A model generated the notes under the pieces. That model made no database searches. It was not told where the DNA came from and saw nothing but the letters and a program-made list of their open reading frames with translations. Made by a program: the position numbers and the translations under genes. Positions 47 through 32,506 of a DNA stretch of 64,000 bases are shown piece after piece; within the stretch, counting starts at the first letter, position 1; the number at the start of each line of letters is the position of its first letter. The stretch is from positions 1-64,000 of IMG/VR virus record IMGVR_UViG_3300023171_000013; one strand, written 5' to 3'. The stretch is from a virus.

Positions 47-121
47 GGCCGATTCGTATAGAAGTTAATACACTGTCCTTTCACGACAGGAACAGGGGAG
101 CGTTACCCCTATCGGCTACCA
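47..121 (+). tRNA. tRNA-Glu(UUC), non-canonical elbow
   Basis: Full cloverleaf with 7-bp acceptor stem, anticodon TTC at 80-82 and encoded CCA. The D-loop is AGAAGTTA (A18G19 instead of G18G19) and the T-loop is AGCGTTA (A54 G55 C56 instead of TTC). Confidence 0.85.
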
Positions 122-126
122 CTTTC

Positions 127-204
127 GGGGATGAAGCCACAGAAGACCGGCTACCGCCTTTTAAGCGGATCATGGTGTGACTGCAACTGTCACTGTCCCC
201 ACCA
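127..204 (+). tRNA. tRNA-Lys(UUU), non-canonical elbow
   Basis: Acceptor GGGGATG/TGTCCCC (two wobbles), anticodon TTT at 160-162, encoded CCA. T-stem GTGAC/GTCAC closes the loop TGCAACT, which is canonical except T55 to G. The D-loop contains AAG rather than GG. The first anticodon-stem pair is mismatched. Confidence 0.8.
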
Positions 205-205
205 C

Positions 206-277
206 TTTGCCCTGTTGTAATTTAGCAGACCACCCTTACCGGTCGGGAGTGCTGGTGTAACCCCAGCGGGCGATTCA
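206..277 (+). tRNA. Degenerate tRNA-like unit, isotype unclear
   Basis: A perfect T-arm (GCTGG/CCAGC, loop TGTAACC) and a plausible acceptor (TTTGCCC/GGGCGAT with one mismatch) sit in register with the array. The anticodon stem is poorly paired and no CCA is encoded. A Val-like CTTAC string is present, but a proper Val(UAC) gene exists at 1138-1215. This may be a decaying tRNA. Confidence 0.35.
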
Positions 278-282
278 TTTAC

Positions 283-356
283 TGCGCGTTACGAAAGAAG
301 CTATCGACTCGCCTGCAAAGCGAAGTAGGCCGGAGCATTACCGGCACGCGCATCCA
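283..356 (+). tRNA. tRNA-Cys(GCA), non-canonical elbow
   Basis: Perfect acceptor TGCGCGT/ACGCGCA, anticodon GCA at 315-317, T-stem GCCGG/CCGGC, encoded CCA. The D-loop holds AGAAGCT (A18G19) and the T-loop is AGCATTA (G55 C56). Confidence 0.9.
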
Positions 357-361
357 CTTTC

Positions 362-437
362 GGGCCGTTAGCTCATTTAGTAGAGCAGTTGCTTTGCAAG
401 CATCAGGCGGGGGGAGCAAAGCCCCCACGGTCCACCA
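362..437 (+). tRNA. tRNA-Ala(UGC), non-canonical elbow
   Basis: Acceptor GGGCCGT/ACGGTCC, D-stem GCTC/GAGC with loop ATTTAGTA (A18G19), anticodon TGC at 395-397, T-loop AGCAAAG (G55 C56), encoded CCA. One mismatch in the anticodon stem. Confidence 0.85.
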
Positions 438-441
438 ATTT

Positions 442-516
442 GCGCCTTTGGGATAGTAGCTGTTCGCCAGTCTTCCAAACTGGATCAGGTCGGGGCAGAA
501 CCGACAGGGCGCACCA
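442..516 (+). tRNA. tRNA-Gly(UCC), non-canonical elbow
   Basis: Acceptor GCGCCTT/AGGGCGC, perfect anticodon stem CCAGT/ACTGG with TCC at 474-476, T-stem GTCGG/CCGAC with loop GGCAGAA (G55 C56). D-loop AGTAGCTG lacks GG. CCA encoded. Confidence 0.85.
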
Positions 517-521
517 CTTAC

Positions 522-598
522 GCTTGGAAAGCTCATATAGATGTAGCTCCGTCTTGATAAGGCGAGGGTAGCCGGTGCAAATCCGGCTCCAAGCACCA
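522..598 (+). tRNA. tRNA-Ile(GAU), non-canonical elbow
   Basis: Perfect acceptor GCTTGGA/TCCAAGC, anticodon GAT at 556-558, T-stem GCCGG/CCGGC with loop TGCAAAT. This T-loop is textbook TTCRANY except T55 to G. The D-loop carries AG where GG is expected. Confidence 0.85.
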
Positions 599-607
599 TT
601 ACTTTAC

Positions 608-678
608 AGGTCCGCGTTTGAGAAACAATCGAAACTCCAAATCTCGAAATTCACGTGCAACTCGTGACGGACCTGCCA
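608..678 (+). tRNA. tRNA-Trp(CCA), non-canonical elbow
   Basis: Acceptor AGGTCCG/CGGACCT with G73, anticodon CCA at 637-639, T-stem TCACG/CGTGA with loop TGCAACT (G55). The D-arm is small (TTG/CAA around a five-base loop beginning AG). The anticodon stem has one A-C mismatch. Confidence 0.75.
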
Positions 679-684
679 ATCATC

Positions 685-743
685 TTCTGCCACCGGGTTG
701 CGCTCGGAGTTAATAGCGACACGGACAGTCGCGGCGGAAACCA
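685..743 (+). tRNA. 59-nt mini tRNA-like unit
   Basis: A 7-bp acceptor TTCTGCC/GGCGGAA with A73 and CCA is stacked on a perfect T-arm (GCGAC/GTCGC, loop ACGGACA). Only about 24 bases separate the T-arm from the 5' acceptor strand, enough for one hairpin (CCGG/TCGG) and no D-arm. It sits in register in the array with a normal spacer. Either a severely reduced tRNA or an acceptor/T-arm minihelix remnant; anticodon uncertain. Confidence 0.4.
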
Positions 744-744
744 A

Positions 745-822
745 TTTCCCCAGTGAAACAGAAACCTCTCTACGTTGTGCGCACATGGTAGAGATGCCGT
801 TCAAGTCGGCTAAGGAAAACAT
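745..822 (+). tRNA. Degenerate tRNA-like unit with canonical T-loop
   Basis: The 3' part has a canonical T-loop (TTCAAGT) on a GCCG/CGGC stem, and TTTCC/GGAAA can pair as a weak acceptor. No sensible anticodon arm is present. Instead the middle forms a long hairpin (CTCTAC/GTAGAG around the palindrome TGTGCGCACA). CCA is not encoded. Probably a tRNA remnant. Confidence 0.25.
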
Positions 823-826
823 TTTT

Positions 827-902
827 GGGTCAATAGCTCAGGTAGTAGAGCACTAGTTTGAAACACTAGGTGTCGTTGGGGCAGCACCAACTTGGCCCAC
901 CA
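827..902 (+). tRNA. tRNA-Phe(GAA), non-canonical elbow
   Basis: Complete cloverleaf with all stems paired: acceptor GGGTCAA/TTGGCCC, D-stem GCTC/GAGC with loop AGGTAGTA (A18G19), anticodon GAA at 860-862, T-stem GTTGG/CCAAC with loop GGCAGCA (G55 C56), CCA. Confidence 0.9.
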
Positions 903-903
903 T

Positions 904-976
904 TGCGAGAAGGTCTGTGACCTGCTGAGTCTCATAAGCTCTAGCAAGTATGGTTAGAATCCATATCTCGCATCCA
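904..976 (+). tRNA. tRNA-Met or tRNA-Ile2 (CAU), U19-A56 type
   Basis: Perfect acceptor TGCGAGA/TCTCGCA, anticodon CAT at 933-935, T-stem TATGG/CCATA with loop TTAGAAT (T55 kept, C56 to A). The D-loop TCTGTGA has GT in place of GG, allowing a U19-A56 pair. Whether CAU is read as Met or, after lysidine modification, as Ile cannot be decided here. Confidence 0.8.
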
Positions 977-983
977 CTTTCAT

Positions 984-1058
984 ATGTTCGTAGCCTAGAG
1001 GACAGGCACTTGTTTTGGGAACAAGATAACGTGAGTTCGATTCTCACCGAGCATACCA
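984..1058 (+). tRNA. tRNA-Pro(UGG), canonical elbow
   Basis: All stems pair. Anticodon TGG at 1016-1018. The D-loop has GG (AGAGGAC) and the T-loop is TTCGATT. This is the internal control showing that canonical tRNAs exist in the same array. Confidence 0.92.
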
Positions 1059-1062
1059 CTTT

Positions 1063-1136
1063 GCGGCTATATTGTAATAGTAACATGTTTCTCTGTCTAA
1101 GAAACGTCAGGGGAGCGTAACCCCTTAGCCGCGCCA
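1063..1136 (+). tRNA. tRNA-Asp(GUC), non-canonical elbow
   Basis: Perfect acceptor GCGGCTA/TAGCCGC with G73 (the Asp discriminator), anticodon GTC at 1095-1097, T-stem AGGGG/CCCCT with loop AGCGTAA, D-loop AATAGTA (A18G19), CCA. Confidence 0.88.
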
Positions 1137-1137
1137 T

Positions 1138-1215
1138 TCTCGTATAGCTCAGTCAGGTCAGAGCACCTCCCTTACATGGAGGGGGTCGGGGGATCGAAGC
1201 CCTCTGCGAGAACCA
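1138..1215 (+). tRNA. tRNA-Val(UAC), near-canonical elbow
   Basis: Acceptor TCTCGTA/TGCGAGA, D-loop with GG (AGTCAGGTCA), anticodon TAC at 1173-1175 in stem CCTCC/GGAGG, T-loop ATCGAAG (T55 C56 kept, only T54 changed), CCA. Confidence 0.9.
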
Positions 1216-1221
1216 TTTTAT

Positions 1222-1296
1222 TCCGTTGTGTCTGACAAGCAAAGAGGCGAGCTGTTAACTCGTGATATGTAGGAGCGTTACCTACCGACGGAGCCA
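1222..1296 (+). tRNA. tRNA-Asn(GUU), non-canonical elbow
   Basis: Acceptor TCCGTTG/CGACGGA with G73, anticodon GTT at 1254-1256, T-stem GTAGG/CCTAC with loop AGCGTTA. The D-loop carries AAG instead of GG. CCA encoded. Confidence 0.87.
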
Positions 1297-1303
1297 TCTT
1301 CAT

Positions 1304-1377
1304 TGGGGTTTTGCATAATAGTAGTGCGAGCGGCTTTGACCCGCTATGCGTCGGAGCGTAACCGACAACCCCATCCA
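1304..1377 (+). tRNA. tRNA-Gln(UUG), non-canonical elbow
   Basis: Perfect acceptor TGGGGTT/AACCCCA, D-loop AATAGTA (A18G19), anticodon TTG at 1336-1338 in stem AGCGG/CCGCT, T-loop AGCGTAA (G55 C56), CCA. Confidence 0.9.
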
Positions 1378-1382
1378 TTTTC

Positions 1383-1456
1383 TGGTGCCTAGTGTAGTAG
1401 TAACACGACTCTCTCTGAAAGAGTAATTGCAGGAGCATAACCTGCGGTGCCATCCA
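1383..1456 (+). tRNA. tRNA-Gln(CUG), non-canonical elbow
   Basis: Acceptor TGGTGCC/GGTGCCA (two wobbles), D-stem GTGT/ACAC with loop AGTAGTA, anticodon CTG at 1415-1417 in stem ACTCT/AGAGT, T-loop AGCATAA, CCA. Likely a duplicate of the preceding Gln gene. Confidence 0.88.
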
Positions 1457-1463
1457 TCTTTAT

Positions 1464-1538
1464 TGGTCCGACTCCTAGATACCGAGGAATCCCGCTCTTA
1501 ACGGGAAAAGGAGAGTGGAATTCTCTACGGACCAACCA
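1464..1538 (+). tRNA. tRNA-Lys(CUU), C19-G56 type
   Basis: Perfect acceptor TGGTCCG/CGGACCA, D-stem TCCT/AGGA with loop AGATACCG, anticodon CTT at 1497-1499 in stem TCCCG/CGGGA, T-loop TGGAATT. Both elbow contacts are changed: A18 with G55 and C19 with G56, an inverted G19-C56 pair. Confidence 0.88.
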
Positions 1539-1543
1539 ATTTC

Positions 1544-1582
1544 GGTAGTGGGTTCATTAACCATCAGACTCTCATAAGGTCC
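1544..1582 (+). tRNA. Truncated 5' half of a tRNA(CAU)
   Basis: Reads as acceptor 5' strand GGTAGTG, a mini D-arm (GGTT/AACC around CATT) and an anticodon arm with CAT at 1573-1575. It then stops; a T-arm and 3' acceptor are missing. It closely resembles the 5' half of the tRNA at 2074-2145 on the other side of the HNH gene. Probably a remnant left by the insertion. Confidence 0.55.
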
Positions 1583-1585
1583 GAA

Positions 1586-1620
1586 TTTTCTCATTGATTT
1601 CTAATAAAGAAATGAGAAAA
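1586..1620 (+). other. Hairpin between tRNA fragment and HNH gene
   Basis: TTTTCTCA at about 1586-1593 can pair with TGAGAAAA at about 1613-1620, immediately before the HNH start at 1629. It could be a processing or attenuation hairpin; no U-run follows. Confidence 0.4.
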
Positions 1621-1628
1621 ACAATCCA

Positions 1629-2078
1629 ATGAACAAGCATTGCCCAGATTGTAAAACGGAAAAAGACATTTCATTTTTTAGGAAAAACAAATCTACAAAA
1701 GACGGGCTACAATTTTTGTGTAAATCGTGCCAATCAGATAGATTTAAAAAATATTTAGTTCTTAATAAGAAGAAACATGTAGCACTAGTTACAGCGTCTA
1801 AAGAAAGAAGAAAACGCGCACTACGTGCTTTTCTTGTCGAACACTTTACTAGTAATCCATGCGTGGATTGCGGCGAATCGGATATACGAGTTTTAGAATT
1901 TGACCACAAACCAAACACGGAAAAGTGCAATGGTGTCGCAAGAATAGCCTGTTCCGGACATTCTTTAAAGAAGCTCGTTCAAGAAATAGATAAGTGCGAC
2001 GTGCGATGTAAAAACTGCCACGCGAAAAAAACATTTGCCCGTATGGGCGGATCATGGCACGATGAATATTTAAGGTAG
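1629..2078 (+). CDS. HNH homing-type endonuclease inside the tRNA array
   Basis: The 149-residue protein has an N-terminal zinc-ribbon-like CPDC...CKSC pair (about residues 5-37). Its C-terminal HNH core includes CVDCGE, EFDHKP and CKNCHAKK, the last providing the final catalytic or metal-binding histidine. Proteins of this type nick DNA at a specific site and spread the gene. It is AT-rich compared with the array and lacks the GTTTAACC octamer. Its stop codon (TAG, 2076-2078) lies in the acceptor stem of the tRNA that starts at 2074, and a tRNA 5' fragment lies upstream. Recent insertion into a tRNA(CAU) locus is inferred. Confidence 0.85.
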   Translation: MNKHCPDCKTEKDISFFRKNKSTKDGLQFLCKSCQSDRFKKYLVLNKKKHVALVTASKERRKRALRAFLVEHFTSNPCVDCGESDIRVLEFDHKPNTEKCNGVARIACSGHSLKKLVQEIDKCDVRCKNCHAKKTFARMGGSWHDEYLR

Positions 2079-2145
2079 AGGGTTAAGAAACCATCAGTGC
2101 ATCATAAGCACAGATAAGCGGGAGCGTTACCCGCCTTTACCCCCA
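2074..2145 (+). tRNA. tRNA-Met (CAU) with mini D-arm
   Basis: Acceptor GGTAGAG/CTTTACC, anticodon CAT at 2103-2105, T-stem GCGGG/CCCGC with loop AGCGTTA, CCA. The D-arm is reduced to GGTT/AACC around a four-base loop AAGA, with no position 8-9 linker. Confidence 0.75.
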
Positions 2146-2146
2146 C

Positions 2147-2221
2147 GCTGACTAAGCATTGATAGTGATGCGCTACATTGGTAATGTAGATAGAGGGCTG
2201 CAAGTTCCCTAGTTAGCTCCA
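2147..2221 (+). tRNA. tRNA-Thr(GGU), non-canonical elbow
   Basis: Acceptor GCTGACT/AGTTAGC, D-stem GCAT/ATGC with loop TGATAGTG, anticodon GGT at 2180-2182 in stem CTACA/TGTAG, T-loop TGCAAGT (only T55 changed), CCA. Confidence 0.87.
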
Positions 2222-2226
2222 CTTTT

Positions 2227-2283
2227 GTCTGTCGGGTTGTAACCAAACGAACGGAGTTCCCTCACTAGGAGTTCGGGCAGACA
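2227..2283 (+). tRNA. tRNA-like remnant
   Basis: Acceptor GTCTGTC/GGCAGAC pairs over 7 bp and a GGT/ACC mini D-arm like that of the CAU tRNAs follows. The rest forms one arm (CGAAC/GTTCG) with an 18-base loop. There is no recognisable anticodon arm and no CCA. In register with the array spacing. Confidence 0.3.
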
Positions 2284-2292
2284 ATTATTTAT

Positions 2293-2369
2293 GCGCGTAT
2301 GCTGCAATTGGTAGTCAGGCTTGACTTAGAATCAAGATGTTGGGGGTTCGACTCCCTCTACGCGCACCA
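2293..2369 (+). tRNA. tRNA-Leu(UAG), canonical elbow, short variable arm
   Basis: Perfect acceptor GCGCGTA/TACGCGC, D-loop with GG, anticodon TAG at 2327-2329 in stem CTTGA/TCAAG, T-loop TTCGACT, CCA. The variable region is about 5 bases, unlike the long arm usual for bacterial tRNA-Leu. Confidence 0.88.
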
Positions 2370-2373
2370 CTTT

Positions 2374-2458
2374 CGGGATGTGTTTAACCGCGAATCGGCA
2401 GAGCGGCTTTCCTTAAAAGAAATGATACTTGGGAGTCCGAATCTCCCCATCCCGACCA
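2374..2458 (+). tRNA. tRNA-Leu(UAA) containing a GTTTAACC octamer
   Basis: Perfect acceptor CGGGATG/CATCCCG, D-arm CCGC/GCGG with an 11-base loop containing GG, anticodon TAA at 2414-2416, T-loop TCCGAAT (C55), CCA. The linker between acceptor and D-arm is TGTTTAA, about five bases longer than normal, and carries the phage octamer at 2382-2389. The variable region is about 7 bases, short for Leu. Confidence 0.8.
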
Positions 2459-2460
2459 AT

Positions 2461-2536
2461 GCGGACGTAGCCCAATGTAGAGGCGGCTACCTCAAAAGTA
2501 GTTCATGTGTGATTGCGAGTATCACCGTCCGCACCA
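2461..2536 (+). tRNA. tRNA-Leu(CAA), non-canonical elbow, short variable arm
   Basis: Perfect acceptor GCGGACG/CGTCCGC, D-stem GCC/GGC with AG in the loop, anticodon CAA at 2493-2495, T-stem GTGAT/ATCAC with loop TGCGAGT (G55), CCA. Variable region only 6 bases. Confidence 0.87.
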
Positions 2537-2540
2537 TTTT

Positions 2541-2614
2541 GGCCCATTAGATTAAAAGTAGATCGGTTGATTCTCAATAAACAGAAGAGGGACCGTTACC
2601 CTCATGGGCCACCA
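2541..2614 (+). tRNA. tRNA-Glu(CUC), A18 with C55 C56
   Basis: Perfect acceptor GGCCCAT/ATGGGCC, D-loop AAAAGTA, anticodon CTC at 2573-2575, T-stem GAGGG/CCCTC with loop ACCGTTA (C55 rather than G55), CCA. One mismatch in the anticodon stem. Confidence 0.82.
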
Positions 2615-2619
2615 CTTTC

Positions 2620-2691
2620 TCCGAAGCCCGCCAGTGTCTTTGGTTTAATGAAGTTGTAACTTCAAGAAGCCGTAAAATCGGAACTAGCCCA
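2620..2691 (+). tRNA. Degenerate tRNA-like unit
   Basis: An anticodon-like hairpin TGAAG/CTTCA encloses TTGTAA (six bases, reading Thr UGU or Tyr GUA), and CCG/CGG makes a small T-arm. A CCA precedes the usual CTTT spacer. The acceptor strands do not pair. Probably a decayed tRNA. Confidence 0.25.
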
Positions 2692-2694
2692 CTT

Positions 2695-2781
2695 TGGTTT
2701 GTGCCCTCTATGGCTGTCTGTAAAATAGTTGCTAAAATAATAGAGAAGTCGCAAGTGGCGCGATACCACCATAACCCACCA
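2695..2781 (+). tRNA. tRNA-Tyr(GUA) with long variable arm
   Basis: Anticodon arm GCTGT/ATAGT with loop CTGTAAA (GTA at 2720-2722), a 25-base variable region closable by TTGC/GCAA as expected for bacterial Tyr, T-arm GTGG/CCAC with loop CGCGATA (G55 C56), CCA. The acceptor has several mismatches and the D-arm is small, so borders are approximate. Confidence 0.6.
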
Positions 2782-2782
2782 T

Positions 2783-2873
2783 TCTCCCGTAGTGTAAAGT
2801 AGCACGAACAGCTTATACCTGTTGAGTCCTAGATTTGGGCGCAGTCTCGGTGCGAGTCCGAGCGGGAGAACCA
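2783..2873 (+). tRNA. tRNA-Ile(UAU) with long variable arm
   Basis: Acceptor TTCTCCC/GGGAGA extends through G-C (7 bp), D-loop with AAG, anticodon TAT at 2814-2816 in perfect stem AACAG/CTGTT, T-stem CTCGG/CCGAG with loop TGCGAGT, CCA. The variable region is 22 bases and can form a GTCC/GGGC stem, a class II feature not normal for tRNA-Ile. Confidence 0.8.
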
Positions 2874-2877
2874 CTTT

Positions 2878-2952
2878 GGTCTGTAAGCGTAGAAAGCGAC
2901 GTGCCTTATTTGTAATTAGGATAGCGGGGCGCAAATCCCCGACAGACCTCCA
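2878..2952 (+). tRNA. tRNA-Thr(UGU), non-canonical elbow
   Basis: Perfect acceptor GGTCTGT/ACAGACC, D-stem CGT/ACG with loop AGAAAGCG, anticodon TGT at 2911-2913, T-stem CGGGG/CCCCG with loop CGCAAAT (G55 C56), CCA. Confidence 0.85.
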
Positions 2953-2955
2953 CTT

Positions 2956-3026
2956 GCCGACTGATTAAGAATCCGACTTCACTCGTAATGAAGACGAAGC
3001 GGGCGCGATACCCGCAGTTGGCTCCA
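2956..3026 (+). tRNA. tRNA-Thr(CGU), small D-arm
   Basis: Acceptor GCCGACT/AGTTGGC, three-pair D-arm GAT/ATC with loop TAAGA, anticodon CGT at 2984-2986 in perfect stem CTTCA/TGAAG, T-stem GCGGG/CCCGC with loop CGCGATA, CCA. Confidence 0.83.
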
Positions 3027-3027
3027 C

Positions 3028-3103
3028 GTTGGCTATGGTCTAACAGTAAAGACACGAGGTTGTGATCCTCGGAATACGAGTGCGATTCTCGTTAGCCTCC
3101 CCA
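3028..3103 (+). tRNA. tRNA-His(GUG), non-canonical elbow
   Basis: Perfect anticodon stem CGAGG/CCTCG with GTG at 3062-3064, D-stem GTCT/AGAC with loop AACAGTAA, T-stem ACGAG/CTCGT with loop TGCGATT. G3028 and C3100 match the G-1/C73 identity pair of tRNA-His. The two outermost acceptor pairs are mismatched. Confidence 0.8.
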
Positions 3104-3105
3104 AT

Positions 3106-3180
3106 GGGTTTATCGTCCAATGTATAGGATACGAAGCTTCTACCTTTGAGATGCTGGTTAGATTCCAGCTAGACCCACCA
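3106..3180 (+). tRNA. tRNA-Arg(UCU), U19-A56 type
   Basis: Acceptor GGGTTTA/TAGACCC, D-stem GTCC/GGAT with loop AATGTATA (G18 U19), anticodon TCT at 3139-3141, T-stem GCTGG/CCAGC with loop TTAGATT (T55 A56), CCA. Together with the CAU tRNA at 904-976 it supports a U19-A56 replacement of G19-C56. Confidence 0.87.
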
Positions 3181-3186
3181 CTTTAT

Positions 3187-3266
3187 GCGAATGTATGCCG
3201 CCTGTCTTCGAAACAGGAGAAAGCTAACTGGAATACATGTAGGTTCGACTCCTATCATTCGCGCCA
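3187..3266 (+). tRNA. tRNA-Arg(UCG), no D-arm, long variable region
   Basis: Perfect acceptor GCGAATG/CATTCGC, anticodon TCG at 3208-3210 in stem CCTGT/ACAGG, T-stem GTAGG/CCTAT with canonical loop TTCGACT, CCA. Only seven bases lie between acceptor and anticodon stem, so no D-arm fits. The variable region has about 21 bases and contains GG. Confidence 0.75.
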
Positions 3267-3270
3267 CTTT

Positions 3271-3347
3271 GCAGGTATAATGGCACTGATTCCTAATCAG
3301 GAAGCGCATAACGGATAATGAAGGTTCGACTCCTTTTACCTGCACCA
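3271..3347 (+). tRNA. tRNA-Arg(CCU), no D-arm, long variable region
   Basis: Perfect acceptor GCAGGTA/TACCTGC, anticodon CCT at 3292-3294, T-stem GAAGG/CCTTT with canonical loop TTCGACT, CCA. As in the preceding Arg gene, seven bases replace the D-arm and an 18-base variable region contains a GG. Confidence 0.75.
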
Positions 3348-3354
3348 ATTTTAC

Positions 3355-3446
3355 GGAAGCTGAAGCACCTGCGCTGGGGCGGGGACTCGTCTTGAAAACG
3401 AGATGTCGTTCAATCGGCTGGGGATCGTGCCCTCCGGCTTCCGCCA
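3355..3446 (+). tRNA. tRNA-Ser(UGA)
   Basis: Acceptor GGAAGCT/GGCTTCC, anticodon TGA at 3393-3395 in stem CTCGT/ACGAG, long variable arm as expected for Ser, T-loop ATCGTGC (T55 C56 kept), G73 and CCA. Confidence 0.85.
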
Positions 3447-3454
3447 ACTTTTAT

Positions 3455-3544
3455 GGAAGGTTAACCAGCAAGGTGCTGGCTCTCATTGCTAATGAGAAGG
3501 ACGCATTAAAATGCGTTGGTAATCGTGCTATCAGCCTTCCGCCA
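3455..3544 (+). tRNA. tRNA-Ser(GCU)
   Basis: Acceptor GGAAGGT/GCCTTCC, D-arm CCAGC/GCTGG with loop AAGGT (GG present), anticodon GCT at 3488-3490, variable arm ACGCAT/ATGCGT, T-loop ATCGTGC (T55 C56), G73 and CCA. Last gene of the array. Confidence 0.88.
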
Positions 3545-22979: not shown

Positions 22980-25900
22980 TTACTTCTTATCCTTCACCAT
23001 CTCATTGCCCAGCCGAGCAAGCTCCGCAAGTTGCTGTCGCCCCAGTTGAATATCGTCCTTCAAATCAGGACGCTTATCCACCAGTCCTTCCAGCATACGA
23101 ATGTCCGAGTATAGCCCAGTCATCTTTTGATTTATGCCATTGAGAACTTGGTAATTACGAAGCTCATCTTGATTCTCCCGAATGAGTTCCCGCGCTCGCT
23201 CCTCATCCCCCTTGTTCATCGCAGACTTAATCCCTTCGTAGATAGCCGCGCTTCGCTCATACTCGGCATAGAACCTGTTGAGTTGTTCACCCCCACGAGT
23301 GGTAGTGAATGCACGCTTCATGTCTTCCGCGAGAGAGCGTGTCTTCGTAGTCTCCCCAGTGACCGCAGAGATAGCTTGGTCCGCAGCCCACATAGCCGTT
23401 GAGCCAGCAACTCCCGTGTAGTTCTTCGCCAGATAATCAATCTTGATCGGGCTGATATTCAGCGCAGCCCCAATCTCACGAGCCACAAGCGGAGTCGTAG
23501 CCTTGTATTGATCGGCAGGAGGAAGCTTTTGCAAGTAGCGAGGAACCACCTGTTGGCCTGAGAAGAAGTTACGGTTAACCGTATCGGAAGCCTCCAACAG
23601 AGGACGCACCGCTTGAGGAGTGGCGAAGCTCATCAGCTTGTTTGCATCCGGCTCAAACGGAGTCACGAATCCGAACAGGTCCGACAGCGCAGCAGTGAAG
23701 AGTTGTGGCTTACCTTCTGCCTGCGCAAACCCATACATATCTTCGACAATGCGACGAGGAGACTGAGCCAGTCCACTTACCCCAGTAGGAAGAGGGAGTT
23801 TGATGGCGAGATAGTTTCCATCCTCATCCTTCAGCCCCATAGGATGAAGGATAATTAGGTTACGATTACGCTCATCTTCCGTCAGGTCCATGTAGGCCTT
23901 GGCGCGTTCAGGCGTAGCAAGATTGTAGGCCGTAGCAGTAGCCAGCGCAGCCCCACCAGCAACCATAGCCTTGAGAGCGTAGGCAGCAGGAGCCTGCTTG
24001 AATGCCTTCACGTTGGCGCGAGTGCCTTGGATACCAGCATTGAGATAGAGGAATACCCCATTGAGCGCACGTCCCCACTCACCCTTGTTGAGATAGTTGG
24101 CCGAACGTTCCTGCGATTCGTAAGCAGCCTTGAGAAAGATGTTATCCAAGGTAGCTTCATCTCCTTCAAGCACCCCTTGCTTGCTACGTTTAACCAGACC
24201 CTGCTCAATGGCTGGACCAGCCAAGCGATCAATCTCGTTCTTGAACACAGCAAGTCGGCCCATGTCTTCAAAGGCAGAGATGGTATCTTCAATTCTGCGA
24301 AGTGCCTGCATTGGTCGCTCACTCACAGGGATATTACCCATCAGTCGGCTTACTGTAACCTTACTCTCCCCCGGAGAACGGAACTGTTCAGTGAAGTTGA
24401 AACGCCCAGCGTATTGTTCCCAGCGTTTAACCAATTCACTGTCCACGGGCTGACCTGTGCGCTTGGCATACTCAGGAATGCGGGATGCAAACGCGCTCTT
24501 AATTCCCGTCCCATAATTCTTGAGCAGATTAGGAATATCTCGGAACTCCTTAGTGTTAACAACCACCTGCGCCATGTCGCGCGGAATCTGACGCAAAGCG
24601 AACGTAGGGTTGAGCGAGGTAAACCCAGCACGTCCCACACGGACAGGCAGATTCATGATCTTGGCGAACAGCCCCATTGCTGGAACGTTCAATCCCTTGG
24701 CGGCTTCCTCCATTTCCTTTGGCACCTCGGCTTCCAGCTTTTCGCCTTCGTGCATGAAGCTGATCTTGTGCTTTGCTTTGGCGATAGCCTCTTTGTCTTT
24801 AATCACTTCGCCGTTACCAACCCAATTGCCTTGGTCTGTCTTATCGACATAGGAACGATCAACAATCACCGGCTTACCGAACTCGTCCAATGCAGGCTTT
24901 CCTTGTGCATCCAGCATACGGTAGCCTCCTCCACCACTAATAGGTTCTAAGATGCCCGTAGCGCGAAGCGGCGACCCATCGGGTGCGCTCCTAAACAATT
25001 GCTTGATACCCGTGGACTCTCCGAGCCATTGAGAAGAACCAAGATTCACCCATGAGCGAGCGGTTGCGTTACGCCCACCCTGTTCAAACGTGGCATAAGC
25101 CCGACCGAAAACTTCCTCCAAAGGAGACTCGATACCACGTTCAGAACCAAGAAACTTCTGAACCAATGTCTGCCCGCTGATAGATGCCGTGGATTTACCA
25201 CTGCGAATTGCAGACGTAAGACCCGAAGCAATCTCATCCGAATCAAAGATACGGCTGAAAGGAACGTAGTCAGGATAAACCTTAACCAGCCAGTCAGCCA
25301 AGTCTCGGCTCACCAGACTATCGCTCACGGATTGCTCCAATAGCTGACGGTAGATGCCATTAACAAACTTGGCATGCGTCTCCATGATAGGAGCAAGCGA
25401 CGCCACGAAGTCAGCCGCAACTTGCTTGGTAATTCCTCCACCCACCTCTTCCTCACTTGCTCCCATTGCGTAACGAGTAAGTGCCTGCTTGGAGATAAGG
25501 TATTTGTCCAGTTGGCTGCGGAACGTTTCGTTGTCCATACCAGCAGCCTTGGCCGCAGCAGGTAACGTAGTCGTAACAAAGTCTGCCAGTCCTGATTCCT
25601 TAATGAAACTCGTAGCCTGAGTCTGATTATTCATGCCGCGAGTTGGCGTGATGATACGAGGATCAACCACTGGGTCTAAGAACTTCCCCGCCTCACGCTC
25701 GGCTAGATCGGCCATGCGATATACCGCTTCGTTTGCCGTCACTAGCTTTCGCTCGAAATAACGAACGGTATCTAATGCGCTTTCCTTTAGTGTTTTCTCT
25801 GCACCTTTACGCTGACCTTCGTTCATCGCGTCAATCTCGGCAGCCTTCTTGGCCGGATCAAATCCCTTGCTTGGTCCTGCCTGCACAGCAGCAATCACCG

Positions 25901-28658
25901 GCCCACTCATTCCAGCGAATGGAGTTCCCTTGGTTTGCTCCGCGATAATCTCATTCAGCTTAACCACCTGAGCCATGAGTTCAGCACGAGTCTGCTTCTT
26001 TGCCGCAGGCTTCGCGGCTGCCTGTGCCACAGCCCCCAGCTTTTCTAGCTGTCCAGCCGATGCCTCTACGCCCAGCCTTTGAGCAAGACGACGAATACCA
26101 GCAGCACCCAAGCTCATCACGCCCATACCTATCAGAGCATTTTGCAAGCGACGTTCCTGATATGCTTCATCGCTCTCCCCTTCTTCTTGTTGGGTTAGCC
26201 CGTAGCCAGCCACTGCACCAATGAGAGGTTCGCCAACAGACGGAAGCGTAGAGTTTCCGATAATACCAAGAGCGCGAGGAGCCTTGGGAATGGTTGCAGA
26301 TTCCAGAGCATCCAACGCCTCCTGCTTATTGAATCCAATCAGCCCGTCATAAGGATACGGTTGGCCTCCGTTAACCTTACGATCAGTCTCATACCACCAC
26401 CCGTTTTCAGGGTTACGATACATGCGATACTTCTCATCGCCAATAGTCACATCGTAGTTTCCATCCGTAGCAAAGTCCGATGCGCGTTTAACCACGGGCT
26501 TACTGCCAACCGCAACGGGATCAGCCGATGCAGCCCTACCCCTGTTCGCAGCAGGCAACTCCATCTCCACGCGCTTAGGCTCTATACGGGTTCCAGTGCC
26601 ACCAGAGAACGCATTGTTGATTGCGTTGATCGCATCCACCTCAGTTTCCAAAGGCGGATAACCGTCAGCAGCTAGTGCTTCGTTCAGACTCTCTCGAATA
26701 CGGTCAAAGCTCAGTCCATCCTCGGTATTCTTTGCCGCCACGAATCGCTTAGGAAGACCATTACCCAGCAGATCATCTATCTCTCCATCGTAAACCCCGC
26801 GAGCAATCTTCACATTACCGCTGTCCATCGCTTCACGAATCACTTGTGCCGCAGGCTTAACCCCAGCCGCAAGCTCCTCTTCGTAGCGAGCAAGCGCGGC
26901 CATTGCAGCCTCATCTCCCATAGACGATTGAATGTTTAACCGTTCAAGTTGCAGCGCATCACGAGCCGCATTCCCATCGGCAACCATTTTCTCACGACGT
27001 TGACGCACACGACGACTCTCGCCAGTTGGAAGCGTTTCATTTGCCAGTGTATCTAGCTCTTTCTCGATAGCACGAAGACGCTTTTCCTGCCTCCCCCTTG
27101 CCCATCCCTTGCTATTTGGAATCTCTGCCTTCCCCTCTCCTTCAATTCCAATAACCATGCGTTGCGGCCCCGTGCGAATAACCCCAGCAGGTTCTTCGAT
27201 TGCAGCAGGCACAACCTCATCCGTTCCAGCAAGCACAGCCTGCCCCATAGCAGGCTCATCAATAACCGGAGCAGGCTCACCGGCCAACGATGCGATATAG
27301 GCTTGAGCGTCTTCTGTAGAATTGAACTCATCCACAACATTACCTTGTCCATCTTGAACAAAGATAGACCCATCTGGATCAGTCACTACGTTTAACCCCG
27401 CAGACTCGGCTTCCAATAACTGTTCTCCCAATGGTGCCTGCTTGGCAACAGGAGCAACCCCTGAAATTTCATTGGCAGCAGCGTTGACGTTCTCAAGTGA
27501 TCCAGCACCCATCGCGGTATCAGCTTGGCTAGCCAGCGAAGGAGAAGTAGAAGCTGGGGGAACATCCACCGTAAGCGTTGCCTCAATGTTATCAGGAGGC
27601 AAAAGAATGGATGCTGATTCAGCAGCACTAATCGGCTGATTAGCCTGTTCAAATACTTGTGCCGACAAAGCAGCAGGGCGTGTGCGACGGGCAATATCCA
27701 ACGGCCCTTCCACATTGGCATTGGCCAATTCAATATCGCTCAAAGTGGGAACATCGCGCAAACCAGCAAGTTGTTCATCCTGCGTAAATCCACGCGCAAC
27801 TTTCGGGTCTTCTTGCGCTCGAACCATCGCAATGAACGACGCAAGTTCTTCATCATCCATCATGGCCGTATCACGATTGGCAGCCTGTTGCGCCCCTTGC
27901 TCCACTACTACCTCTCGGTAAGGAATGATTCGCGCAACTTCTTCATTCGTTAATTCATTAAGCCCAATCTGTTCTTCCAATTTACTTAGTTCTTGTGCGC
28001 TCATCTTCCGACGAGCAGCGCGACTAAGCGGCTTGGCTACCGCCTCAAAACCTGTTCTCAGCGCACCAGCACCCACACCCATTGTGCCAGCATCAATGGC
28101 TACCTTGAGAGGATCAACCTCACCACGAGTTTCTAGTTGTTCAGCCACACTGCCAGCAGCCCCAGCAGCACCCAAACGGAGCGCATCTTTACCCGCAGCA
28201 CGCAGCACCGGCATAACCCCACGACCTACGGTGCCAGCAGCAGGAATAGCATTCATTGCGCCTTCCGCCAGTGTGCGAGAAAGGGAGTAATCAAACTTAT
28301 CACCACGAGCAATCTCGCGCCGTTGAACAATGTCTGCCCCTAATGCGCCACCAGCCACACCACCAATAGCCGCCCCCCCCGGCACAGGGGTAAGGAACCC
28401 CAACCCTGCCCCGCCAAGACCAGCACCAGCAGAAATAGCCACATCCCCCACGGTTTCCATTACCGTAGCATCTAGGTCTTCGCGTTCACGAATCAAATCA
28501 GCCGCCGTAAGGATGTCTTTCGCTAGAGCTTCATCACCACCCGCCTCTTGCTGGTTCAAGCCATACCAAGATTTGAACAACGCACGCTTCGTATCTAAGT
28601 CACCATTAACGTAGAGCGGATCAGACTTAACGACCGAGAAAGGGACTAGGTTTGCCAT
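22980..28658 (-). CDS. Giant internal virion / polyvalent protein (1892 aa)
   Basis: The largest gene in the window. Gly/Ala-rich hydrophobic stretches occur near residues 70-100, about 780-830 and about 1560-1590 (YALKAMVAGGAALATATAYN). The C-terminal third (MNLPVRVGRAGFTSLNPTF, then FALRQIPRDMAQ) resembles large polyvalent proteins of podoviruses thought to be ejected with DNA. No lytic transglycosylase or RNA-polymerase motif was seen. Upstream GGGAG gives a plausible ribosome site. Five octamer copies. Confidence 0.7.
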   Translation of the reverse strand: MANLVPFSVVKSDPLYVNGDLDTKRALFKSWYGLNQQEAGGDEALAKDILTAADLIREREDLDATVMETVGDVAISAGAGLGGAGLGFLTPVPGGAAIGGVAGGALGADIVQRREIARGDKFDYSLSRTLAEGAMNAIPAAGTVGRGVMPVLRAAGKDALRLGAAGAAGSVAEQLETRGEVDPLKVAIDAGTMGVGAGALRTGFEAVAKPLSRAARRKMSAQELSKLEEQIGLNELTNEEVARIIPYREVVVEQGAQQAANRDTAMMDDEELASFIAMVRAQEDPKVARGFTQDEQLAGLRDVPTLSDIELANANVEGPLDIARRTRPAALSAQVFEQANQPISAAESASILLPPDNIEATLTVDVPPASTSPSLASQADTAMGAGSLENVNAAANEISGVAPVAKQAPLGEQLLEAESAGLNVVTDPDGSIFVQDGQGNVVDEFNSTEDAQAYIASLAGEPAPVIDEPAMGQAVLAGTDEVVPAAIEEPAGVIRTGPQRMVIGIEGEGKAEIPNSKGWARGRQEKRLRAIEKELDTLANETLPTGESRRVRQRREKMVADGNAARDALQLERLNIQSSMGDEAAMAALARYEEELAAGVKPAAQVIREAMDSGNVKIARGVYDGEIDDLLGNGLPKRFVAAKNTEDGLSFDRIRESLNEALAADGYPPLETEVDAINAINNAFSGGTGTRIEPKRVEMELPAANRGRAASADPVAVGSKPVVKRASDFATDGNYDVTIGDEKYRMYRNPENGWWYETDRKVNGGQPYPYDGLIGFNKQEALDALESATIPKAPRALGIIGNSTLPSVGEPLIGAVAGYGLTQQEEGESDEAYQERRLQNALIGMGVMSLGAAGIRRLAQRLGVEASAGQLEKLGAVAQAAAKPAAKKQTRAELMAQVVKLNEIIAEQTKGTPFAGMSGPVIAAVQAGPSKGFDPAKKAAEIDAMNEGQRKGAEKTLKESALDTVRYFERKLVTANEAVYRMADLAEREAGKFLDPVVDPRIITPTRGMNNQTQATSFIKESGLADFVTTTLPAAAKAAGMDNETFRSQLDKYLISKQALTRYAMGASEEEVGGGITKQVAADFVASLAPIMETHAKFVNGIYRQLLEQSVSDSLVSRDLADWLVKVYPDYVPFSRIFDSDEIASGLTSAIRSGKSTASISGQTLVQKFLGSERGIESPLEEVFGRAYATFEQGGRNATARSWVNLGSSQWLGESTGIKQLFRSAPDGSPLRATGILEPISGGGGYRMLDAQGKPALDEFGKPVIVDRSYVDKTDQGNWVGNGEVIKDKEAIAKAKHKISFMHEGEKLEAEVPKEMEEAAKGLNVPAMGLFAKIMNLPVRVGRAGFTSLNPTFALRQIPRDMAQVVVNTKEFRDIPNLLKNYGTGIKSAFASRIPEYAKRTGQPVDSELVKRWEQYAGRFNFTEQFRSPGESKVTVSRLMGNIPVSERPMQALRRIEDTISAFEDMGRLAVFKNEIDRLAGPAIEQGLVKRSKQGVLEGDEATLDNIFLKAAYESQERSANYLNKGEWGRALNGVFLYLNAGIQGTRANVKAFKQAPAAYALKAMVAGGAALATATAYNLATPERAKAYMDLTEDERNRNLIILHPMGLKDEDGNYLAIKLPLPTGVSGLAQSPRRIVEDMYGFAQAEGKPQLFTAALSDLFGFVTPFEPDANKLMSFATPQAVRPLLEASDTVNRNFFSGQQVVPRYLQKLPPADQYKATTPLVAREIGAALNISPIKIDYLAKNYTGVAGSTAMWAADQAISAVTGETTKTRSLAEDMKRAFTTTRGGEQLNRFYAEYERSAAIYEGIKSAMNKGDEERARELIRENQDELRNYQVLNGINQKMTGLYSDIRMLEGLVDKRPDLKDDIQLGRQQLAELARLGNEMVKDKK

Positions 28659-31660: not shown

Positions 31661-32506
31661 TTATAAGTTGTGTATTTGGGCTAAAGGTTCTCGGTAATCA
31701 ATAACAATCTCCTCCCCAACGTTTCCCCCGCACTGTCCTTCGATTGGACGGATTGCATGAAGATAGATATTGCCGTCATCAGAAAATACCATGTGCGCAT
31801 TAGGCGTATTGCTATGGTTTGTAAATCTCCCAAGCGGAGTCCGTTTATTCCCAATCTTTGCAACCCCAACAAGTTCCCCGTTTGAATAGTCTGCTGTTGC
31901 AAAGACTCCCCTGCCATGGATCAGCGATGGTCCTAGCTGATATTTGTAAGTTCCAGCAGGCATTTGAATCATGTCGTCCTCGTTAAGAACAACTGCATCA
32001 ACATCATACTGCTTGAACCCCTTTTCATCTAAAAGAAACTGATAGTCATTTCTCGCAGCCATTGCCAACAACAACTTACTTTCATTTATTGGCCTTCGGT
32101 TAAACGATTCAGATTTTGTGAGTAATGTGGATTCTAGTTTTTCAACATCTCTCTCTTCTGTTTTGTATAAGTTATACCACACAACATCCTCATGGATATA
32201 CCCTATCTTTCTTCCTGCATCTCCTTGAAAAACCATAGGAGCGGAAAGCTCTTTCGTTGTTCCATCATTCAGAAGAACGGTAACTCTTCCCTTCGCAAAG
32301 ATGTTTGTGTGGGGAAAATTCTGATGATGACCAACAACAAAAGCCCCAGCGGGAAGCCTTACCTCACGAAGATAAACCCCATCCTCGGGGAAGTGGTGAA
32401 ACACCTCACACTTTACTTGTTCATTTTCAAGCATCGCTTTTTCTAGATTCTCTACCTCAAATCCGGTGATTTCCCCGATGGCACTAAGTGAATCCCTTGA
32501 GTTCAT
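31661..32506 (-). CDS. Cupin-SET fusion protein (281 aa)
   Basis: Residues about 40-110 resemble a cupin-like barrel (REVRLPAGAFVVGHHQN...HTNIFAKGRVTVLL). The C-terminal 90 residues form a SET domain: SLIHGRGVFATADYSNGEL, RFTNHSNTPNAHMVF and EEIVIDYRE, the NHS...P.A and GEE...DY hallmarks of lysine methyltransferases. SET enzymes transfer a methyl group from S-adenosylmethionine to lysine. The target here is unknown; its place between virion genes suggests a virion or host protein. Octamer at 32098. Confidence 0.7.
   Translation of the reverse strand: MNSRDSLSAIGEITGFEVENLEKAMLENEQVKCEVFHHFPEDGVYLREVRLPAGAFVVGHHQNFPHTNIFAKGRVTVLLNDGTTKELSAPMVFQGDAGRKIGYIHEDVVWYNLYKTEERDVEKLESTLLTKSESFNRRPINESKLLLAMAARNDYQFLLDEKGFKQYDVDAVVLNEDDMIQMPAGTYKYQLGPSLIHGRGVFATADYSNGELVGVAKIGNKRTPLGRFTNHSNTPNAHMVFSDDGNIYLHAIRPIEGQCGGNVGEEIVIDYREPLAQIHNL

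Follow-up and report, generated by a model that had tools for sequence, protein, structure and literature searches.

The contacts G18-Psi55 and G19-C56 at the tRNA elbow are regarded as near-universal and are embedded in gene finders, tRNA-folding models, and enzyme recognition rules. Other combinations of D- and T-loops can reportedly work in suppressor tRNAs selected by Zagryadskaya, Steinberg and co-workers in 2003-2004; those came from artificial selection in a single tRNA, whereas the rewired elbows described here are natural and occur in many tRNAs. The staphylococcal non-proteinogenic tRNA-Gly has the T-loop TGCAAAT, likewise with G55C56. It is one isoacceptor, with UU or CU at positions 18-19 and weak EF-Tu T-stem pairs (PMC4052509). 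A phage tRNA gene cluster was defined as at least 15 tRNA genes at a density of at least 2 per kb in a survey that relied on standard finders (PMC6409571). An anti-defence role has been proposed for phage and plasmid tRNA clusters or arrays (PMC6409571, PMC5966550, PMC12803027), and resistance to anticodon nucleases has been suggested for phage tRNAs (PMC10264068). Damaged tRNAs elicit a response from RtcB operons (PMC7790460), and in Anabaena the repressor TrcR is common to a 26-gene tRNA operon and rtcB (PMC10272220). A description of an A18/G55 elbow was not found in the literature searched, the key suppressor-tRNA papers lying outside that search.

The tRNA array of the phage window

The window analyzed comprises 64,000 nucleotides (positions 1 to 64,000 of IMG/VR record IMGVR_UViG_3300023171_000013). 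A relaxed cloverleaf scan detected about 30 tRNA-like units at 47-3544, 24 of them high-scoring and about 6 weaker; at the same cut-off, zero matches were obtained in the remainder of the window and in one 20-kb shuffled sequence. With about 30 units in 3.5 kb, the array is a phage tRNA gene cluster by the definition above and is like the phage and plasmid clusters of PMC6409571, PMC5966550, and PMC12803027 in gene density and near-full amino-acid range; the elbow change is absent from the available parts of those descriptions. The 24 high-scoring units share with the standard bacterial elongator tRNA (RF00005) the four cloverleaf stems, a 7-nt anticodon loop with U33, a 7-nt T-loop, and an encoded CCA end, and known identity marks, the G3-U70 of Ala among them, are retained. 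The standard tRNA has G18 and U55, whereas 19 window units (17 high-scoring and 2 weaker) have A18G19 with G55C56, and their 54-58 pair is often A-U, G-G, or C-A.

All features given here lie on the + strand. The units with A18G19 and G55C56 are, with D-loop and T-loop in brackets, tRNA-Glu(UUC) at 47..121 (AGAAGTTA, AGCGTTA), tRNA-Lys(UUU) at 127..204 (ACAGAAGACC, TGCAACT), tRNA-Cys(GCA) at 283..356 (AAGAAGCTA, AGCATTA), tRNA-Ala(UGC) at 362..437 (ATTTAGTA, AGCAAAG), which carries the G3-U70 pair, tRNA-Gly(UCC) at 442..516 (AGTAGCT, GGCAGAA), tRNA-Ile(GAU) at 522..598 (CATATAGATGT, TGCAAAT), tRNA-Trp(CCA) at 608..678 (TGAGAAAC, TGCAACT), and tRNA-Phe(GAA) at 827..902 (AGGTAGTA, GGCAGCA). They continue with tRNA-Asp(GUC) at 1063..1136 and tRNA-Gln(UUG) at 1304..1377 (both AATAGTA, AGCGTAA), tRNA-Asn(GUU) at 1222..1296 (GACAAGCAA, AGCGTTA), tRNA-Gln(CUG) at 1383..1456 (AGTAGTA, AGCATAA), a CAU-anticodon tRNA with a weak D-arm at 2074..2145 (T-loop AGCGTTA), tRNA-Thr(GGU) at 2147..2221 (TGATAGTG, TGCAAGT), tRNA-Leu(CAA) at 2461..2536 (CAATGTAGA, TGCGAGT), and a UAU-anticodon tRNA with a long variable arm at 2783..2873 (AAAGTA, TGCGAGT). 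The last three are tRNA-Thr(UGU) at 2878..2952 (AGAAAGCG, CGCAAAT), tRNA-Thr(CGU) at 2956..3026, also with a weak D-arm (T-loop CGCGATA), and tRNA-His(GUG) at 3029..3103 (AACAGTAA, TGCGATT), which has the G before position 1 and C73. An HNH endonuclease gene lies within the array at 1629..2078.

Five units keep the canonical GG with U55C56, namely tRNA-Pro(UGG) at 984..1058 (AGAGGAC, TTCGATT), tRNA-Val(UAC) at 1138..1215 (AGTCAGGTCA, ATCGAAG), tRNA-Leu(UAG) at 2293..2369 (CAATTGGTAGT, TTCGACT), tRNA-Ser(UGA) at 3355..3446 (T-loop ATCGTGC), and tRNA-Ser(GCU) at 3455..3544 (CAAGGTG, ATCGTGC). In two others the 19-56 pair is flipped with compensation: tRNA-Lys(CUU) at 1464..1538 has A18C19 with G55G56, giving C-G (AGATACCG, TGGAATT), and tRNA-Arg(UCU) at 3106..3180 has G18U19 with U55A56, giving U-A (AATGTATA, TTAGATT). 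The sole exception named for the window is tRNA-Glu(CUC) at 2541..2614, with A18G19 and C55C56 (AAAAGTA, ACCGTTA). A CAU-anticodon unit of weaker fold at 904..976 has U55A56 (T-loop TTAGAAT), and two Arg-like units, UCG at 3187..3266 (Rfam 39 bits) and CCU at 3271..3347 (32 bits), lack a D-arm at the expected position and share the T-loop TTCGACT. An earlier note, made from the letters alone, had counted about 20 rewired units, given four example T-loops (AGCGTTA, TGCAAAT, GGCAGCA, and CGCGATA), and named Pro, Val, and Leu(UAG) as canonical; the count stands at 19, all four loops are present, and the two Ser units past its end join the canonical class. The two compensated units, Lys(CUU) and Arg(UCU), had not been picked out there.

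The few units that are degenerate or lack a D-arm would fit decaying genes or chance cloverleaves, but the stems of the main class are intact and CCA is encoded, the shuffled sequence yielded zero false units, and covariation at 18/55, at 19/56, and at 54/58 extends over a large number of tRNAs (see below); for the main class this explanation is refuted and its probability negligible.

ARAGORN called 10 tRNAs over the window, and Rfam RF00005 at the gathering score found 12 units when the whole window was searched and 15 when the array was searched alone. The array therefore seems small in standard annotation. Over 17 loci, ARAGORN recovered 126 of 230 rewired units versus 89 of 95 canonical ones; about half of the rewired units are missed, and the tRNA content of phages and some bacteria is therefore under-counted.

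Covariation of the elbow positions

The comparison set consisted of 1,483 tRNAs from other phages and bacteria, at loci collected by T-loop pattern, so that the counts describe these loci and not frequencies in nature. GG accompanies U55C56 in 98% and AG accompanies G55C56 in 96%. Among the rarer elbow classes, the predicted 18-19 dinucleotide occurred in 60 of 70 D-loops (shuffled mean 30.6, maximum 46, 10,000 shuffles). For 402 tRNAs with 7-nt D-loops, positions 18 and 55 were G-U in 195 and A-G in 175 (Fisher p 3e-88), and the association persisted with the search-pattern T-loops excluded (G-U 195, A-G 91). G18-G55 combinations in the tables were set aside as mostly an effect of register shift in Leu D-loops. 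Positions 54 and 58 covary as well (in the G55C56 class, U-A 203, A-U 172, G-G 67, and C-A 33).

By this comparison, position 18 is dependent on 55 and 19 on 56, and vice versa, and a direct A18-G55 contact is suggested by the mutual dependence. The earlier note had held that the two loops change together and are not decaying, and had proposed 18/55 and 19/56 covariation in other arrays as the test; this covariation is present and bears the claim out, in a form stronger than the note gave it. That the elbow has been replaced by a matching alternative is thus almost certain from the sequences compared.

Both elbow types were found for all 20 amino acids, often within one array, and phage tRNAs of high mutual similarity differ chiefly in elbow type. 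These observations favor a neutral exchange, in which G18-U55 and A18-G55 would be equally good, a double change would convert one to the other, and less-constrained phage or spare arrays would accumulate the alternative with no evasion involved. We consider this possible, at somewhat over a one-in-three chance; it leaves unexplained the one-type arrays and the array positions in Verrucomicrobia described below.

Occurrence in bacteria and other phages

In a 900-kb one-contig Saccharibacteria genome, the only tRNA-Cys found has A18G19 with G55C56, and it is alone in this among the 41 tRNAs read. The 18/55 rule held without exception in 46 Saccharibacteria tRNA-Cys orthologues. On an RpoB tree of 28 Saccharibacteria, positions 18 and 55 of this single-copy housekeeping tRNA switched jointly about 8 times with zero intermediates, at least 5 of the switches being on strongly supported branches. 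The flips go back and forth, and in the genome read they concern a single tRNA; this resembles neutral exchange more than sustained evasion. On this genomic evidence the A18/G55 form is one that serves translation in Saccharibacteria; the window units are very probably translation tRNAs, and we infer that those of the phage array are expressed and charged.

A function outside normal translation, raised in the earlier note with the staphylococcal peptidoglycan tRNA-Gly as precedent, would fit the loss of GG at 18-19, which the two share. The parallel goes no further than that, since the staphylococcal UU or CU is unmatched (PMC4052509) whereas the AG of the window tRNAs keeps 19-56 paired and nearly all amino acids are involved. 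The Saccharibacteria tRNA-Cys also argues against such a diversion, which we regard as highly improbable.

Verrucomicrobia have chromosomal arrays, the largest with 34 units, that are rewired almost throughout, and whole arrays combining 20-34 unrelated isoacceptors show a single elbow type with few departures. Rewired arrays are a minority trait in this group, the strict pattern occurring in 11 of 145 genomes and true arrays in 3 of these 11 (G012, G274, and G220). RtcB, RlaP, and slipin genes lie near them, often adjoining; among loci with three or more G55 units, 13 of 34 showed RtcB linkage, versus 2 of 84 others, a contrast whose statistical significance is overstated because neighbors are partly shared by descent. 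The proximity of RtcB and RlaP suggests that the arrays are spare sets drawn on when tRNAs are damaged. The Anabaena trn operon, compared by description and not by sequence, is similar in being a spare set co-repressed with rtcB and induced by translational stress; the available part of its description does not contain the elbow change (PMC10272220). The RtcB/RlaP-linked arrays are nearly wholly rewired, whereas the window array is mixed, with its five canonical units. RtcB was not found in the record of the window phage, and tblastn with three Verrucomicrobia RlaP frames gave zero matches in the window. From the similar arrays, our guess for the host of the phage would be Verrucomicrobia.

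Rewired tRNAs also occur in cultured phages, as tRNA-Cys of Mycobacterium phage Reindeer, reached from the arrays of other loci, and tRNA-His of a Salmonella Seunavirus, reached from a window-array match. In a blastn comparison of the window array with isolated phages, only the canonical Val unit was represented among the matches listed. Recognizable tRNAs were absent from the two nearest relatives by TerL and portal, and a directly homologous array for comparison is missing for this reason.

Interpretation

Our best explanation as a whole, held with somewhat more confidence than doubt, is a phage-borne replacement tRNA set with an alternative elbow. The array would supply a working elongator tRNA set with few gaps, and in most of its tRNAs the universal G18-U/Psi55 and G19-C56 elbow has been swapped for A18 with G55, with 19-56 still in Watson-Crick pairing and 54-58 being U-A, A-U, G-G, or C-A. 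The set would stand in when host tRNAs are cut or exhausted; the changed elbow would shield it from nucleases or modifying enzymes that read the GG/T-Psi-C elbow and would still be accepted by the ribosome, EF-Tu, and synthetases. For the replacement role the chances appear even. Evasion as the reason for the change is put forward tentatively; escape from tRNA-cutting defences, suggested in the earlier note, is plausible and gains from the RtcB/RlaP neighbors in Verrucomicrobia. The absence of RtcB from the window phage and of recognizable tRNAs from the nearest relatives found was counted against the explanation as a whole.

Avoided U55 modification, also suggested in the earlier note, does follow from the sequence: G55 chemically removes the target base of TruB, and many rewired T-loops lack U54 too. 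G55 and the altered 54 would bar Psi55 and T54, and a tRNA made late, in a burst, would fold its elbow without host TruB and TrmA. As the reason for the change this is unlikely, as most carrier bacteria have TruB and the gain from independence is doubtful. Under ordinary conditions E. coli can do without TruB. TruB loss as a general cause of rewiring was rejected, the gene being present in 5 of 6 bacterial genomes tested.

Beyond the replacement set of a single phage, a second, parallel A18-G55 repertoire common to bacteria and phages may be kept as a response to tRNA damage, with rewired sets by RtcB/RlaP replacing normal tRNAs destroyed by enzymes that recognize the standard elbow; this wider proposal is rather doubtful.

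The A18/G55 elbow looks like a real working tRNA form that recurs in many other phages, in Verrucomicrobia, and in Saccharibacteria. It occurs in nature repeatedly and covaries cleanly; as such it would reveal what the elbow cannot do without, and the rewired tRNAs can serve directly as probes of TruB, RNase P, EF-Tu, and tRNA nucleases. The association with RtcB/RlaP points toward the use of spare tRNAs in response to tRNA damage, for which cultured phages and Geminisphaera colitermitum TAV2 are suitable test systems.

tRNA array of the phage

The full virus record in IMG/VR is 66,703 bases, of which the window is bases 1-64000, and its ends share a repeat of ~127 bases. Past this repeat, the last 16 bases of the record (3188-3203 of locus L009) repeat the Glu tRNA in the inverse sense, which is probably an assembly artefact. 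Closely spaced tRNA-like units fill the plus strand at 47-3544, and a relaxed cloverleaf scan was purpose-written to find them. ARAGORN reported 10 tRNAs in the window and Rfam 12 at the gathering score (15 with the array stretch searched alone); the relaxed scan recognised 24 well-formed units in the array along with several that were weaker, with anticodons covering nearly all amino acids, and 0 units at the same cut-off in the rest of the window and in one shuffled 20-kb sequence.

The earlier note had read D-loop and T-loop as changed together, with Pro, Val, and Leu-UAG standard, and the unit-by-unit elbows bear this out. A18G19 occurs with G55C56 (rewired) in 17 well-formed and 2 weaker units, and the standard GG occurs with U55C56 in Pro, Val, Leu-UAG, Ser-GCU, and Ser-UGA. 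Covariation of 19-56 is already present inside the array, because this pair is preserved through changes on both sides in Lys-CUU, where A18C19 meets G55G56, and in Arg-UCU, where G18U19 meets U55A56. The one clear exception is Glu-CUC, with A18G19 and C55C56.

Several units are unusual in other ways. Two Arg-like units at 3187-3266 (UCG) and 3271-3347 (CCU) have just 7-9 bases between the acceptor and anticodon arms, a variable region of ~20 bases in which a GG stretch resembles a D-loop, and T-loops of the standard TTC kind; they are D-armless or rearranged tRNAs. A unit of 60-odd bases at 679-748 (acceptor TTCTGCC/GGCGGAA, ACCA end, T-arm GCGAC[ACGGACA]GTCGC) is without a D-arm. A tRNA that combines a UAU anticodon with a long variable arm (2783-2873) recurs, rewired and standard, in phages and Verrucomicrobia arrays (loci L095, L226, and L208, genome G274, and phage DLP_6); its amino acid is uncertain, the annotation in DLP_6 being Ile. 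Within 1543-2145, an HNH gene is flanked on one side by the truncated 5' half of a CAU tRNA, which has a hairpin, and on the other by an intact CAU tRNA, an arrangement suggestive of insertion into a tRNA gene together with a replacement copy. Elsewhere, the phage encodes a SET-domain protein (31661-32506) and an 1892-aa protein with an LPD38 domain (22980-28658), probably an internal virion protein.

Covariation of the elbow

Comparison loci full of tRNA arrays that include rewired units were collected by a T-loop pattern scan of IMG/VR and GTDB genomes. Among 979 distinct tRNAs of the viral set, those with 7-nt D-loops carried G18 in 99% of cases when the T-loop had U55C56 and A18 in 92% when it had G55C56, with G19 either way. 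With the genomes added (1,370 tRNAs), 18x55 combinations in 7-nt D-loops were G-U 195, A-G 175, and few others (Fisher 3e-88); leaving out T-loops of the search pattern gave G-U 195 and A-G 91. The G18-G55 cases are for the most part Leu D-loops read out of register. The prediction rule was G18 with U55, A18 with G55, and 19 pairing with 56; when it was applied to the rare classes (U55A56, U55U56, G55G56, G55A56, G55U56, and U55G56) among 1,483 tRNAs, the 18-19 dinucleotide was as predicted in 60 of 70, against a mean of 30.6 and a maximum of 46 in 10,000 shuffles, the 18-19 assignment in long D-loops being a containment test and not a structural alignment. The covariation at 18/55 and 19/56 in other arrays that had been set beforehand as a test was thus found, and 54-58 covaries too (U-A, A-U, G-G, and C-A). 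We infer that A18 and G55 touch, perhaps from A18 N6 to G55 O6, and G55 may make a GNRA-like turn that replaces the Psi55 U-turn.

Both elbow types were seen in all 20 amino acids. Rewiring was least frequent in Leu (23/111), Ser (14/59), and Arg (16/82) versus 497/1,297 overall, these being shares within loci gathered by a T-loop pattern. The low share of Leu agrees with the role of G18G19 and of the 18-55, 19-56, and 54-58 contacts as leucine identity elements (PMC9976931).

Among cultured phages, the annotated tRNA-Cys of Mycobacterium phage Reindeer has D-loop GAGTTAGTTA and T-loop GGCAGAT, and the corresponding place in its relative Rey is taken by a standard tRNA-Cys with an identical T-stem; in both phages, the array adjoins a gene annotated as an RtcB-type tRNA splicing ligase. 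In Salmonella phage vB_SEnST11_KE23, a tRNA-His that the annotation lacks has T-loop CGCGATA.

Saccharibacteria tRNA-Cys

ARAGORN found 41 tRNAs in Saccharibacteria 47-87 (one contig, 900,471 bases, 32 kb masked). The only tRNA-Cys among them is rewired, and Gly-GCC and Pro-UGG have compensated 19-56 pairs. A match to this tRNA-Cys occurs in 125 of the 147 genomes of the class, and 18/55 was A/G or G/U in all 46 orthologues read. An RpoB tree built for 28 of these shows ~8 changes of elbow state, at least 5 of them on branches with strong support, and at every change 18 and 55 switched jointly (p 0.0625 by sign test when just the 5 strongest pairs are counted). These switches are the strongest evidence that 18 and 55 are interdependent and that the ribosome uses both forms. 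As the comparisons show, the alternative elbow is a form that translation uses and that coupled change maintains. Because tRNA-Cys flips freely between elbow states here, neutral exchange between the forms is the main rival to a protective purpose.

Genomic setting and possible purpose

Chromosomal Verrucomicrobia arrays are rewired almost throughout and are a minority trait among 145 sampled Verrucomicrobia. One has 34 units (1,305,042-1,308,639 of a 5.96-Mb contig), that of Geminisphaera colitermitum TAV2 ~27, and other loci 19-20. Genes for RNA repair are found close by. In TAV2, RtcB lies ~2.5 kb from the rewired array, and genes for a McrC-like DUF2357-PDDEXK_7 protein, an AAA protein, and a D12 methylase (L377 1408-6321) lie within a few kb of both, a defence-island setting. 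The G274 array neighbours sigma-70, slipin, DUF4145, and two RlaP genes, with RtcB at 3 kb; RtcB is ~3 kb from the rewired array in G220, rewired tRNAs lie within 1.5 kb of RtcB genes in G029 (one flanked on both sides), and RlaP is present on the L224 contig. Overall, RtcB or RlaP was found in 13/34 genome loci with at least 3 G55 units versus 2/84 others (p 9e-7, which is too small because the genomes are related).

Lost Psi55 synthesis was ruled out as a general cause, since TruB is present in 5 of 6 tested bacterial genomes that carry rewired tRNAs. Damaged tRNAs trigger RtcB operons (PMC7790460), and in Anabaena TrcR co-represses a 26-tRNA operon and rtcB (PMC10272220). Anticodon-nuclease resistance has been proposed for phage tRNAs in PMC10264068, the text of which mentions neither D-loop nor T-loop; the elbow change itself may confer such resistance. 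Our best guess at the purpose of the rewired arrays is that they are replacement sets against tRNA damage or depletion.
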